From: a virus
Direction: 5' to 3' (one strand)
DNA length: 24,015 nt
Virus record (IMG/VR): IMGVR_UViG_3300037963_001099
Span: 1-24,015 of that record
Part shown: piece by piece, positions 1 through 4,543 of the stretch
How the letters are laid out: every line of letters starts with the position of its first letter
How positions within the stretch are numbered: position 1 is the stretch's first letter
Translations under genes and position numbers: made by a program
The notes under the pieces: generated by a model
The model's database searches: none
What the model was told of the DNA's origin: nothing
The model's input: the letters and a program-made list of their open reading frames with translations, nothing else

Positions 1-1353
1 GAAGACGTGTTTTTCCCGCCCTACACCATCAATCCGCAGGAAGCTCCGTATTGCTTCCACGTGGTTCACATGACTCCCGAGCAACTTCGGGGCAAGATGG
101 CGAGCGAGGATTGGGACAAGGAGTTCGTTGAGGCCGTAATTGAGAAGTCCGGTCAGACCGAAGCAAGCGAGGGCAACTTAAACCGCCTCCGCGACAACCT
201 TGAGTTTACCGAGGACCATCACGACGAAACTTTGAGAATCGTCTATTGCTACCAGCGCCTCCTTGACGAGGACGACGTTCCCGGCATCTATTGTACGGTA
301 TTCAATGCCGACACGCCCGAACTTTACGCCAAGCACCAATTGCTCGACTACGGGCATGGCGGCTATCCTTTCGTAGTCACGACCCTTGAGAAAACCAGCA
401 AGCGCCTATACTCGTCACGCTCCTACCCGGAGCTTATCGAGAGCATCCAGCAGGTACTCAAGGTCGAGACGGATGCGGCGATTGACCGACAGTCGTTGTC
501 AACGCTTCCCCCACTTGAACACCCTCTTGGCCGGGCGCCGACCAAGTGGGGACCGGGGGTAAAGGTTCCTTACCGCACGCCGGGAGAATATCGGTTTGCC
601 GAAACCCCGCGCTTCGACGTGGGGTCGGTTGAAATACGCAAGTACGTCAAGGAGCAAGCCGACCGATACTTCGGCAGAAACGCTCCGAACGTTGACCCGG
701 TGGAAGCGCAGTCCAAGCAGCAGGAAGTAGTGGACAAGGTGTTCGGCCACCTCAAGAAGGTGTTCGACCAAGTGTTCACCCTGTACCAACAGTACGGCCC
801 GGACGAAGAGTTCTTCCGTGTCACCGGCATGAACAACATGCAGAAGTACGCAAAGGGCGCGGCGGGTGAGCGCTTTGACTTCTGGCTCCAGTTTGACGTG
901 GCGACCCAAGACCCGCAACAAATGGTCGAGCGCGTCAAAGCGGTGGCCGAGCTTGGGGGTATGCTCGACAGAAGCGGCACCCTGGATACCGAACGTCTTC
1001 TGCAAGTAGCCGTAGAACAAATCCTGCCCGGAGCCGCAGAGAAGGTCATGCTTCCGAAAGAAACCGCATCTGAGAAAGCGGTTGAGGAAGAGCGCGCTAC
1101 GATTGCCGAACTGTCTGCGGGTGTGCCTCCCAACGTTCGCGAACAGGATGCGCATGAGTTGAAGCTTCAAGTATTCCAGCAATGGCTCCAACAGCCCGAC
1201 GTCCAGCAACGGATACAGGGCGACGAAGCCATGCAGGAGCGCGTGAAGAACTATATGCAGCAACGTCAATTCGCCATCCAGCAAAAGCAAAATGCTGAAA
1301 TTGGAAGGATTGGCGCCCAGCCCACTCCATACGGACAAACGGCAAGTGGCTAG
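1..1353 (+). CDS. Portal protein (head-tail connector), 5' end missing
   Basis: The frame is open from the first base of the window, so the start lies upstream; about 450 C-terminal residues are present. The stop TAG is at 1351-1353. The portal is the dodecameric ring at the capsid vertex through which DNA is packaged and ejected. The visible N-terminal stretch (IxPxxxxxxxFHVVHMTPEQLRGKM) has the pattern seen where P22-like podovirus portals describe a conserved arginine/histidine-rich strand before a short helix. A long Gln- and Glu-rich helical C-terminus (about residues 385-440) ends in a flexible Gly/Thr/Ser tail. Position directly before scaffold and capsid genes supports the call. Complete P22-type portals are usually 600-750 residues, so some 200-300 residues are probably outside the window. 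Family assignment is from motif memory and context. Confidence 0.82.
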   Translation, partial: EDVFFPPYTINPQEAPYCFHVVHMTPEQLRGKMASEDWDKEFVEAVIEKSGQTEASEGNLNRLRDNLEFTEDHHDETLRIVYCYQRLLDEDDVPGIYCTVFNADTPELYAKHQLLDYGHGGYPFVVTTLEKTSKRLYSSRSYPELIESIQQVLKVETDAAIDRQSLSTLPPLEHPLGRAPTKWGPGVKVPYRTPGEYRFAETPRFDVGSVEIRKYVKEQADRYFGRNAPNVDPVEAQSKQQEVVDKVFGHLKKVFDQVFTLYQQYGPDEEFFRVTGMNNMQKYAKGAAGERFDFWLQFDVATQDPQQMVERVKAVAELGGMLDRSGTLDTERLLQVAVEQILPGAAEKVMLPKETASEKAVEEERATIAELSAGVPPNVREQDAHELKLQVFQQWLQQPDVQQRIQGDEAMQERVKNYMQQRQFAIQQKQNAEIGRIGAQPTPYGQTASG

Positions 1354-1489
1354 AAAGAAGGCAACCAAGACGCGCAAGGACTCTTGCTACCGCAAAGTTA
1401 AAAAGCAGTACAAGGTGTTTCCTTCCGCTTATGCCAGCGGGGCAATTGCCAAGTGTAGAAAGAAGAAGGCCGGCAAGAAGAAGAAGTAA
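1346..1489 (+). CDS. Small lysine-rich Cys-containing protein (47 aa)
   Basis: A GTG at 1346 lies inside the portal stop region and gives a 47-residue protein, translationally coupled to portal. An ATG at 1292 in the same frame would add 18 residues but runs deep inside portal without a Shine-Dalgarno, so I prefer GTG. The product contains the pattern RKDSCYRKVKxxYKVFPSAY followed by ASGAIAKCRKKK and ends in a KKAGKKKK tail. This YKVxPSAYASGAxxKCRK pattern recurs, as I remember it, in many uncultured aquatic phage genomes near the portal and capsid genes, with two conserved cysteines. Its function is not established. The extreme basic charge suggests nucleic-acid binding or a virion-packaged role, which is inference only. 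Confidence 0.7.
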   Translation: MARKKATKTRKDSCYRKVKKQYKVFPSAYASGAIAKCRKKKAGKKKK

Positions 1490-1728
1490 TGCCTGTTAGG
1501 AAAACCAAGAAAGGGGCTTCCTTGAAGCGGTGGTTCAAAGAAAAATGGACCGACCAACACGGCAGACCTTGCGGGAACAAAAAAACCAAAGGCGTAAAAA
1601 AATGCCGTCCCACGAAAAAAGTTTCTAAAAAAACACCAAAGACTTGGAAGCAAGTCGGGAAAAAGAAAAAGGCGCTCGTAGCTGAAAAACGAAGAGTAGG
1701 CATGGGGCGTAGAACCAAGAAAGCATAA
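1489..1728 (+). CDS. Small basic protein, DUF5872-like (79 aa)
   Basis: ATG overlaps the previous stop (TAATG at 1487-1491), indicating coupled translation. The protein carries the motif WFKEKWTDQHGRPCG near residues 15-29, then KKCRPTKKVSKKTPKTW near residues 37-53 and a basic tail. I associate this arrangement (W-x-x-E-K-W, one Cys, then C-R-P-T/S-K-x-V-S-x-K-T-P-x-T-W) with DUF5872, a family found in phages and some large eukaryotic viruses. No biochemical function is known to me. About one third of residues are Lys or Arg, so binding to DNA, RNA or an acidic virion partner is plausible. It is the second of four basic microproteins in a row. Confidence 0.75.
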   Translation: MPVRKTKKGASLKRWFKEKWTDQHGRPCGNKKTKGVKKCRPTKKVSKKTPKTWKQVGKKKKALVAEKRRVGMGRRTKKA

Positions 1729-1737
1729 GGAAAAGTC

Positions 1738-1854
1738 ATGCCAAGAGTAGGAAAAAAACATTACGCTTACACGCCAGCAGGAATGAAAAAGGCCAAAGCC
1801 GCCGCGAAAAAGGCAGGTAAGAAAGTTACTTACAAGAAAAAGAAAAAGAAATGA
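1738..1854 (+). CDS. Tiny lysine/alanine-rich protein (38 aa)
   Basis: Start ATG at 1738 has AAGGAAAA just upstream as ribosome binding site. The stop TGA at 1852-1854 overlaps the next ATG (ATGA at 1851). The 38-residue product begins MPRVGKKHYAYTPAGMKKAK, continues with an Ala/Lys helix and ends in six lysines. The MPxVGxKxYxYTxAGxxxAK opening is a recurring pattern in phage genomes, from memory, usually beside portal or capsid genes and sometimes fused to larger proteins. Function unknown. It resembles a minimal DNA-condensing or virion-filling peptide in composition, which I infer without direct support. Good coupling on both sides makes a real gene likely despite its small size. Confidence 0.7.
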   Translation: MPRVGKKHYAYTPAGMKKAKAAAKKAGKKVTYKKKKKK

Positions 1855-2099
1855 GCATCACCCATCGCGGCGAAAGGTTCTCGGGCTACAACAAGCCAAA
1901 GAGAACTCCCGGTAAGTCGAAAAAGTTTGCGGTCTTGGCCAAAGAAGGCGACAAGGTGCGCTTGGTACGATTTGGCGACCCGAACATGACTATAAAGAAA
2001 CATGACCCGAAGCGCAGGAAGTCCTTCCGCGCTAGGCATAAGTGCGACCAGAAGAAGTCAAAGCTGACGGCAGGGTACTGGTCTTGTAAGAAGTGGTGA
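1851..2099 (+). CDS. Basic protein of the GYNKPKRTPGK...VRFGDPNM family (82 aa)
   Basis: ATG overlaps the preceding stop (ATGA). The protein contains GxxFSGYNKPKRTPGKSKK (residues 7-25), then a hydrophobic strand pair LAKEGDKVRLVRFGDP (29-44), and ends with KSFRARHKCDQKKSK and AGYWSCKKW. I recognise this as a conserved viral and phage family (my recollection is DUF6321) in which the RTPG, VRFGxxxM, FRARHxC and YWxCxxW blocks are constant. The two cysteines near the C-terminus could bind metal or form a disulfide. Function is unknown. It is often found in the same neighbourhood as the other basic microproteins, so the four may act together. Confidence 0.78.
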   Translation: MSITHRGERFSGYNKPKRTPGKSKKFAVLAKEGDKVRLVRFGDPNMTIKKHDPKRRKSFRARHKCDQKKSKLTAGYWSCKKW

Positions 2100-2450: not shown

Positions 2451-3557
2451 ATGAGTAACGAGACTACCGAGGTCGTCTCCGCACCCTTAGAAGAAAGTGC
2501 GGTGGAAACGGAAACGCAGCCGGACGGCAATTTGTCGATGTCCGATTACGTCGCGTCGATTATGACGCGAGGTGAAGAGACGGAAAGCGAAGCGCCTGAA
2601 GGTCAAGCTGAAGCTGAAGAGGAGTCCGCTGAACAAGCTGCGGAAGCCCCGGAAGCCGAGGAACCGGAAGACGTGCCGGAGGAATCTTCGCAAGAAGAGC
2701 CGCCCGCAGAGACTTCCACAGATGTTCTTTCTAAGTTAGGAATAAACTTGGACGACATGTCCGAGGAAGACGCGAAAGCGTTGTCGAAGGCGCTCAATGC
2801 CTCGGCGGTCAAGAGGTTCGGGAAACTTACTGCGCAAAAAAAGGCGCTGATAGAGCGGAACGAGGAACTTGAACGCCAAGTCCAGAGCGCTGAAAGCGCG
2901 CCGGTCAACGAAACTCCTTCTTATATGCAGGACAATGCCCTGCATAAAGTCACCTCCCAAGAGGAGATGCAGAAGGAAGTGGACAGCTTGAACTCGCTCA
3001 TCGAATGGGCGGAAGAAAGTATGGACGGCGAAGAGCAGTACGACGACGAGGGGAACGAGTACGTCGCTGAAAACGATGGGGTCAAGTATTCCAAGGCTGA
3101 ACTGAAGAAGCTAAGGAACAACGCCCGGAAGATTCTGCGGAAAGACGTACCGGAGCGCCAAAAGTGGATACAGGAGAAACAGCAATCCGACCAGCTTGCG
3201 GTGGATACCTTCGACTTCCTCGGGGATAAGGAGAGCCCGGACTACGCCATGTACCTACAAGTGAAGAGTTCGCCGCTTTACGCGCCGCTTCTGGCGCGGA
3301 TGCCGAACGCCAACTTTGCGATAGGGCTCATGGTGGAGGGAGCCAAAACGGTAAAAGCGCGCTACGAAGCGCAGGACAAACCAAAGGCAACTCGGAAACC
3401 CAAGGCGCCCGTAGCTTCCACCGAAGCAGCGGTCACGGCCAAAACGTCGCCCAAGTCCCAACGTGAGAAGTCTGTGCAGGCGGCTCGTCAACAATTTGAA
3501 GAGTCCGGAAGCATGTCCGACTACCAAACTTACCTGCGCCTAAAGCGCGAAACTTAA
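2451..3557 (+). CDS. Capsid scaffolding protein (368 aa)
   Basis: ATG at 2451 is chosen. An upstream TTG at 2415 is in frame but overlaps the candidate promoter region. The N-terminal ~110 residues are strongly acidic and low in complexity (Glu, Ala, Pro, Ser), followed by predicted coiled-coil helices (about residues 100-250, Glu/Lys/Arg/Gln-rich). The basic C-terminus near residues 310-368 ends DYQTYLRLKRET. An acidic disordered head, central coiled coil and a basic C-terminal helix that contacts the capsid shell are the hallmarks of P22-type scaffolds, which guide procapsid assembly and then leave. It sits immediately upstream of the capsid gene, the usual position. No protease domain is visible. 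The Shine-Dalgarno is weak. The call rests on composition and gene order. Confidence 0.78.
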   Translation: MSNETTEVVSAPLEESAVETETQPDGNLSMSDYVASIMTRGEETESEAPEGQAEAEEESAEQAAEAPEAEEPEDVPEESSQEEPPAETSTDVLSKLGINLDDMSEEDAKALSKALNASAVKRFGKLTAQKKALIERNEELERQVQSAESAPVNETPSYMQDNALHKVTSQEEMQKEVDSLNSLIEWAEESMDGEEQYDDEGNEYVAENDGVKYSKAELKKLRNNARKILRKDVPERQKWIQEKQQSDQLAVDTFDFLGDKESPDYAMYLQVKSSPLYAPLLARMPNANFAIGLMVEGAKTVKARYEAQDKPKATRKPKAPVASTEAAVTAKTSPKSQREKSVQAARQQFEESGSMSDYQTYLRLKRET

Positions 3558-3574: not shown

Positions 3575-4543
3575 ATGGCTAAAGCCGCATCGTACAACGT
3601 GGCGGGAAACCGAGAAGACCTCTCGGACATCCTGACCATTCTTGAGCCAGAAGCGACTCCCGTCACTTCTATGGCTAAAAAGCAAAAGGCGTCCGCTACT
3701 TTCTTTGAGTGGCAAGTGGACGACCTTCAAGAAGTCGAGTTCGCCGGAGTGAACGAAGGCGAGGACGTTAGCGCCTTCACCAACGCTTCCGCCAACCGCG
3801 CTCGTCTTGGCAACTACATCCAGAAGTTCCGTCGCACGTTCGCCGTGTCCGACATCCAAGAACTTACGGACACCGCCGCCGTTTCCAGCGAGTTCGCTTA
3901 CGCCGAAGGCAAGGCCGCTCGGGAAATCAAGCGCGACGTCGAAGCCGCCATTTGTTCCGGTCAAGACCGTCAAGCCGACTCCGGCGCGGGAAGCCCTTAC
4001 AAGACTCGCGGCATGTTCAAGTGGCTTGGAAACGGAGGGCAACCTTCCGACATTCCCGCTGCTTTCCAAAACGTAGCCAACGATACTTCCGCCACGCAAT
4101 CGGAAGGCAGCTTTAACAGCGTGCTTCAAGAGCTTTACGAAGCTAATGGGATGCCCGGTGGACAACTCACCTTGGTAGCCGGCCCGCAACTGAAGAAAGA
4201 AATTTCTGATTTTGCTCGTCAGGAAGGTGGAACGACCGCCCTGTCCTTCTCGGTGACTCAGAGCGCTGAATCCAAGAAGATTACGCTCTCCGTCAACATG
4301 TACGAAGGTGATTTCGGAAACGTGGCCATCGTGCCTTCCGTGTTCCTTAACAGGACTAGCGGTTCTGCTACGCTTGACAGCGATGCCGGACTTCTTCTGG
4401 ACCCGGACTACTTCGCTCTTCATCAACTGAAGGCCGAAGCTAAAACCGAGCTTGAAGACCAAGGCGGCGGACGTCGCGGGTTCTGTGACATCATCTGCGG
4501 TCTAGCTTGCTTGGCTCCCAAGGCTCACGGCTACTTCGCCTAA
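3575..4543 (+). CDS. Major capsid protein, SU10/DUF5309-like HK97 fold (322 aa)
   Basis: A strong ribosome binding site (AAGGAG, eleven bases upstream) precedes ATG 3575. Features of the family are visible: an N-terminal arm with NREDLSDILTILEPEATPVTSM, the strand/loop FFEWQVDDLQ (residues 44-53), the RLGNYIQKFRRTFAVSDIQE block (77-96), and the helix containing KRDVEAAICSGQ. Later come NQ-less G-loop equivalents and a C-terminal DPDYFALHQLKAEAKTELED strand. This matches what I know of SU10-type major head proteins, an HK97-fold family common in podoviruses of this type. An odd detail is three cysteines at 304, 308 and 312, each four residues apart, next to the C-terminus, plus one at 127. It would assemble into the icosahedral shell on the upstream scaffold. 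Confidence 0.88.
   Translation: MAKAASYNVAGNREDLSDILTILEPEATPVTSMAKKQKASATFFEWQVDDLQEVEFAGVNEGEDVSAFTNASANRARLGNYIQKFRRTFAVSDIQELTDTAAVSSEFAYAEGKAAREIKRDVEAAICSGQDRQADSGAGSPYKTRGMFKWLGNGGQPSDIPAAFQNVANDTSATQSEGSFNSVLQELYEANGMPGGQLTLVAGPQLKKEISDFARQEGGTTALSFSVTQSAESKKITLSVNMYEGDFGNVAIVPSVFLNRTSGSATLDSDAGLLLDPDYFALHQLKAEAKTELEDQGGGRRGFCDIICGLACLAPKAHGYFA

Follow-up and report, generated by a model that had tools for sequence, protein, structure and literature searches.

The question raised by this locus is what a run of very small, lysine-rich proteins does in the head-gene cluster of an aquatic tailed phage. The window analyzed is a stretch of 24,015 nucleotides (positions 1 to 24,015 of IMG/VR virus record IMGVR_UViG_3300037963_001099), and all of the features considered lie on its plus strand. 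The 3′ part of a portal gene (1-1353) forms the left edge of the slot that holds the four genes, O1-O4. The portal protein has no Pfam or PHROG family match of its own and was named by its position and by its relatives, in which homologues precede the same gene order. O1 (1346-1489; 47 residues, pI 10.7) has a GTG start that overlaps the end of the portal gene and is joined by a TAATG overlap to O2 (1489-1728; 79 residues, pI 11.7). After a gap of 9 nt comes the polylysine protein O3 (1738-1854; 38 residues, pI 10.7), which is coupled through an ATGA overlap to O4 (1851-2099; 82 residues, pI 10.8). A fifth coupled gene, that of the acidic protein O5 (2099-2326; 75 residues), was absent from the first-pass annotation of this DNA; it follows O4 through a TGATG junction and forms the right edge of the slot, and its homologue sits 5′ of the scaffold gene in relatives. 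Further downstream are an acidic scaffold-like protein (2451-3557), which gave no convincing Pfam or PHROG family match and was named by its position directly 5′ of the major capsid protein (MCP) gene, and the SU10-type MCP itself (3575-4543; PF17236, E = 3.8e-58). Four coupled, basic reading frames between portal and scaffold had been proposed in the first-pass annotation; the frames were confirmed at these positions, and the same placement is found in relatives of the window.

Lysine and arginine account for 32-43% of the residues of O1-O4 (pI 10.7-11.7), whereas the net charge per residue was −0.09 to +0.03 in the 15 larger neighbouring proteins checked. Given their many homologues, and the conservation of O2 and O4 despite saturated synonymous sites, O1-O4 are judged to be real genes. 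The terminator-like hairpin between O5 and the scaffold gene (2348-2380), which is a consensus match only and was likewise absent from the first-pass annotation, combines a 13-bp stem, of whose pairs 9 are GC, with a run of T. Across 2348-2414 this strong terminator-like hairpin is followed by a weak promoter-like site, and together they may separate a portal-cassette transcript from that of scaffold and MCP.

O1 and O2 were assigned by comparison with the DUF5872 profile (PF19197). O1 carries the two-cysteine motif KDxCYxKVKxxYKVFPSAYASGxIAKCRK and aligns to profile positions 9-41 with an E-value of 0.0087 and 17.1 bits, under the gathering cut-off of 27.5; its match to phrog_727 has an E-value of 1e-10. 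O2, with the motif LKRWFKEKW...CG...KKCRP...EKRRVGMG, aligns to positions 48-111 with an E-value of 2.1e-12 and 48.1 bits, above the same cut-off. In the close relatives L015, L016 and L023, O1 and O2 form one fused gene, and the fused L023 protein spans positions 6-111 at 56 bits. Given the consecutive profile matches and the fused relatives, the single DUF5872 architecture corresponds to O1 plus O2 and is split in the window into two coupled genes, of which O2 is the C-terminal part. Since the full profile is covered by the fused relatives only, O1 is termed DUF5872 N-part-like. The family is also found in giant viruses, for example CpV-BQ1, and in a haptophyte virus DUF5872 proteins occur alongside DUF5754 proteins (PMC12085832). 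The model obtained for fused O1-O2 was weak (pTM 0.33) and had no match in the PDB; the O1 part of the fused homologue was modelled as two helices (pLDDT about 76-84).

O3 has the pattern VGKKxYxYTPxGxxxAK..KK and, by its profile match (E = 1.5e-6), is a member of the small orphan family phrog_33179. It adjoins O4 or O2 in relatives, and a tblastn search with O3 against phages gave no match. Comparison by hhalign revealed no homology among O1, O2, O3 and O4.

Residues 2-82 of O4 match positions 6-96 of the phrog_7595 profile with an E-value of 2.4e-24. The match to DUF5754 (PF19058) has an E-value of 6e-4 and 20.3 bits, under the gathering cut-off of 27.4, and this family was matched by 8 of 53 O4 relatives at E ≤ 1e-3; O4 was therefore assigned to phrog_7595 and is referred to as Tlr6F-like. 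Work from 2015 singled out Tlr6F as conserved across nearly all polinton-like viruses; it is also present in several virophages, many giant viruses and some phages, and is without detectable similarity to domains of known structure or function (PMC4642659). Relative to Tlr6F/DUF5754, O4 differs in scoring below the Pfam gathering threshold and in its location in a tailed-phage head cassette. The AlphaFold2 model of O4 is confident (pLDDT 87, pTM 0.71) and comprises two β-hairpins and two C-terminal helices, with no match of Z ≥ 2 in the PDB. A Foldseek search of BFVD returned proteins of Tunisvirus (probability 0.99) and Chloriridovirus (0.93) at a TM-score of about 0.55 and E-values of 0.02-0.15, both being predicted proteins and possible Tlr6F members; other structural matches were an XkdF-named protein, a ChaB-named protein and ICP1 ORF125. 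The residues N14, K24, V28, G42, F59, A61, R62, K71, Y76, W77 and W82 of O4 are invariant. Its two cysteines were both present in 44 of 51 dereplicated sequences and both absent in 7, and in no case was a single one retained. The O1 pair is likewise kept or lost jointly, alignment gaps aside, and such paired retention in both proteins would fit a disulfide or a shared site.

Thus, the earlier proposal that three of the four proteins belong to families of aquatic phages and large viruses, none of known function, holds: DUF5872 (O1 and O2) and Tlr6F/DUF5754 (which O4 resembles) are common to tailed phages and to giant or other eukaryotic DNA viruses, and neither has an assigned function. The accompanying analogy with viral histone-like proteins was not sustained by any histone or HU match in Pfam, PHROG or the PDB. 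A relationship to histones or HU-IHF was accordingly rejected, given that no family match was obtained and that neither the O4 model nor the weak O1-O2 model matched a PDB entry.

In relatives with the order portal-O5-scaffold-MCP, the gap between portal and O5 holds varied mixes of small, very basic reading frames. The order is portal-O3-O4-(O1O2)-O5-scaffold-MCP in L016 and L023 and portal-O1-O2-O4-O5-scaffold-MCP in L095, and in L026 and L029 a pair designated B7-B6 (phrog_17747 and phrog_14910) takes the place of O1-O2. The two pairs occupy the same slot in the same order and spacing, adjoining O4, but B7-B6 lacks the cysteine pair. B6 shares with O2 an N-terminal LKRW..W block (hhalign P = 4e-5), and B7 bears a weak likeness to O1 (P = 0.008). 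When B6 served as the query, 80 loci were retrieved; in the 83 loci analyzed, B7 was present in 80, O4 in 57 and an O1 or O2 match in 0, and more than 30 had the order portal-O4-B7-B6 with O5 or scaffold downstream. Exclusion between the two editions is not absolute, given that a single locus, L118, matches both. In L014, the portal, O4, O5 and scaffold proteins are 98-100% identical to those of the window and O1-O3 are replaced; this exchange in a near-identical phage suggests that O1-O3 are individually dispensable. The L014 region 1860-2971 contains two tandem, related basic reading frames of 181 and 166 residues together with a duplicated portal-end flank; the first has KTPAKK repeats, and neither gave a PHROG or Pfam match. 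Acidic reading frames also lie in the gap in a few relatives, and several slots contain acidic or membrane-like genes, so that basic genes are not the only occupants. The varied contents imply that the slot exchanges cassettes, of which O4 is the steadiest member, and the window and its relatives join families shared across realms as one exchangeable unit among head genes.

Linkage among the members is uneven. O1 was present in 78 of the 80 loci fetched with O2, and DUF6321 ('SFC') in 57. In 46 of 46 dereplicated records with both genes O1 lay 5′ of O2, at a distance of ≤500 nt in 44, and by this measure O1-O2 is a near-obligate ordered pair. The 80 loci fetched with O4 contained O1-O2 in 15 cases, B7-B6 in 5 and O1 or O2 alone in 4; neither pair was nearby in the remaining 56, many of these contigs being short. 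O2 was absent from 17 of 23 longer O4 records. O4 and DUF6321 occurred together in 0 of 47 longer records, but the queries used to select these records differed, and the result is therefore not taken as proof of mutual exclusion. The first-pass annotation had the four genes working as a set and proposed co-occurrence across genomes as the check. This stands for O1-O2, which co-occur, keep their order and are fused in three relatives. It does not stand for the four together, whose composition is not fixed, as the O4 records lacking O2 and the replacement of O1-O3 in L014 demonstrate; for the whole set the check is only partly answered.

The reading that we prefer, tentatively and with a probability of roughly 0.45, is that the cassette is a modular island of late, head-linked basic proteins that most likely pass into the prohead and end up with the packaged genome. 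The proteins would be made late, alongside the head proteins, would be taken up by the prohead and joined to the packaged genome, and would perhaps enter the cell together with it. O1, O2 and O3 would work chiefly by bringing a high density of lysine charge to DNA phosphate. For O4 we envisage a small folded domain that binds DNA or the prohead interior and that can be attached to the head-maturation protease, a protein needed inside the prohead. The swapping of versions at one spot in related phages suggests, we infer, entry into the head with DNA. Consistent with this reading are the position and coupling of the genes, the order portal-[basic genes]-O5-scaffold-MCP, which is retained in relatives with differing slot content, the replacement of O1-O2 by B7-B6 in about 80 loci and of O1-O3 in L014, the contrast in charge between O1-O4 and their larger neighbours and, as described below, the protease fusions, the match to phrog_220, the neighbourhood of O4 and the genes between scaffold and MCP in P-SCSP2. 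Against it stand the weak charge of the protease-fused O4 copies, the non-obligate nature of the set, the apparent dispensability of O1-O3, the slot contents that are not basic, and the location of such genes near lysis genes in other phages or, for O2, near groEL, RNR and others.

On this reading O1-O4 would work like the internal proteins of T4 (IPI, IPII and IPIII), swappable small basic proteins of the head interior that, like O1-O4, vary among close phages. They number about 1000 per head and contact DNA phosphate through lysines, and are highly diverse among T-even phages; one is an injected inhibitor of restriction, and the 76-residue mature IPI* adopts a novel compact fold (PMC3012670). 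The T4 proteins are packaged in the head, as O1-O4 would be on this reading; inspection of the N-termini by eye revealed no common capsid-targeting sequence among O1-O4 such as the T4 proteins have.

The same parallel lends itself to a second explanation, in which the cassette is a swappable accessory module of injected counter-defence or takeover cargo directed against host nucleases or the nucleoid. Cassette swapping between near-identical phages, alternative alleles that never occur together in the B6 set, and the precedent of T4, whose internal proteins are diverse defence proteins (PMC3012670) and whose IPI* blocks GmrSD, would all agree with such a role. Sequence conservation points the other way. 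O2 is 94% identical between the window and L095, in which portal, scaffold and MCP are 57, 42 and 51% identical, and O4 is 93% identical between the window and L016, in which the values for portal and scaffold are 70 and 49%. Such strong conservation between distant phages is unlike that of arms-race proteins and unlike the diversity of the T4 internal proteins. In addition, relatives of the same families are found in eukaryotic viruses, which face different defences, and the cargo explanation is therefore considered unlikely. Comparison of O2 and O4 with their relatives gave pN values of about 0.05 and pS values of 0.8-1.05, with synonymous sites saturated; on these estimates both genes are under purifying selection. 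The saturation implies that the constraint is long-standing and not the mark of a recent transfer, and an old exchange between lineages is also possible.

A domain resembling O4 is fused to PF14550 (the head-maturation protease XkdF, of XkdF/S78 type) in four Vibrio or Aeromonas phages, which ties it to this protease in two domain orders. In ICP1 gp125, annotated as a capsid protease, PF14550 (36-160) is followed by the O4-like domain (184-261); in qdvp001 gp133, 2L372X gp101 and 1.101.O gp105, the O4-like domain comes first. All four fusion genes lie between portal and MCP. The ICP1 copy is weakly basic, with 19 positive versus 15 negative residues. Given the weak charge of protease-fused copies, the function of O4 cannot be charge alone, and O4 is probably a folded binding or targeting domain and not a simple DNA neutralizer. 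These fusions, in both orders and between portal and scaffold or MCP, together with the structural matches of O4 to the XkdF-named protein and ICP1 ORF125, could also be explained if the cassette encoded factors for prohead assembly or maturation, with O4 as a targeting or cofactor domain for the protease or scaffold and O1-O3 serving the same step without being retained in the virion. Tailed-phage capsids and proteases have no relationship to those of polinton-like viruses, virophages and giant viruses. The presence of Tlr6F-type proteins in all three groups (PMC4642659, PMC12220804) and the many O4 genes without a protease nearby make this assembly role improbable. O4 also gives a match within phrog_220 ('minor head protein and DNA pilot'), and Melnitz gp18 combines a cytidyltransferase N terminus, DUF5824 and an O4-like C terminus. 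A cytidylyltransferase-type virion protein of S-SM1 was reported by Sullivan et al. (PMC3037559); it is a possible counterpart of Melnitz gp18 and is not taken as direct virion evidence. The MPP-C cyanophage cryo-EM paper and the cobavirus paper make no mention of cassette proteins.

Gene neighbourhoods bear on whether these proteins belong with the head at all. Among 99 larger proteins encoded within 2.5 kb of O4, at loci mostly outside the close lineage of the window, the overlapping families included phrog_2 terminase (16), head-tail adaptor (11), portal phrog_1216 (10), major head protein (5) and head maturation protease (5); phrog_2 was not among the top 25 for 91 distal proteins. Near O2 in larger records (86 proteins), phage groEL (phrog_5725) was counted 10 times and major head protein 4 times, with virion structural proteins and RNR also present. 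Thus, O4 tends toward packaging and head genes and O2 in larger phages does not. That the products are nucleic-acid-binding proteins acting in the infected cell, on nucleoid, RNA or replication, and merely co-transcribed with head genes would suit their strong basicity, the position of O2 in larger phages as often near RNR and groEL as near head genes, and the lysis genes that adjoin O4 in cobaviruses, but the recurrent head-module position, the protease fusion and the many terminase, portal and head genes around O4 leave this the most doubtful of the three alternatives.

A bolder reading may also be considered, in which tiny basic proteins, mostly with two cysteines, constitute a protamine-like, exchangeable virion chromatin in both tailed phages and eukaryotic DNA viruses despite their unrelated capsids. 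The Tlr6F fold would then supply the member that is folded and can be targeted, and after release the chromatin could be locked by disulfide pairs. This reading is highly speculative. The role of these families can now be tested in cultured marine phages; cultured phages with homologues include CRP-2, CRP-7, P-SCSP2, KBS-S-2A and the Aeromonas phage 2L372X.

DUF6321 (PF19846; the 'SFCAR...WNC' cyanophage proteins) has the motif RRKSFxAR in common with O4, a weak likeness confined in hhalign to 12 profile columns. Syn9 gp114 is a single polypeptide that contains an O1-like domain together with DUF6321; its gene (L003:4149-5480), which adjoins the region of the small terminase gene, also encodes a two-cysteine CW..VPNCVP stretch, and a similar stretch is found in Melnitz (L178:2303-4255). 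In the cyanopodovirus P-SCSP2 (L012:4588-5566), five small reading frames lie between scaffold and MCP, and the members of this island include O1-like, O2-like and DUF6321-like genes and a short EF-hand-looking reading frame.
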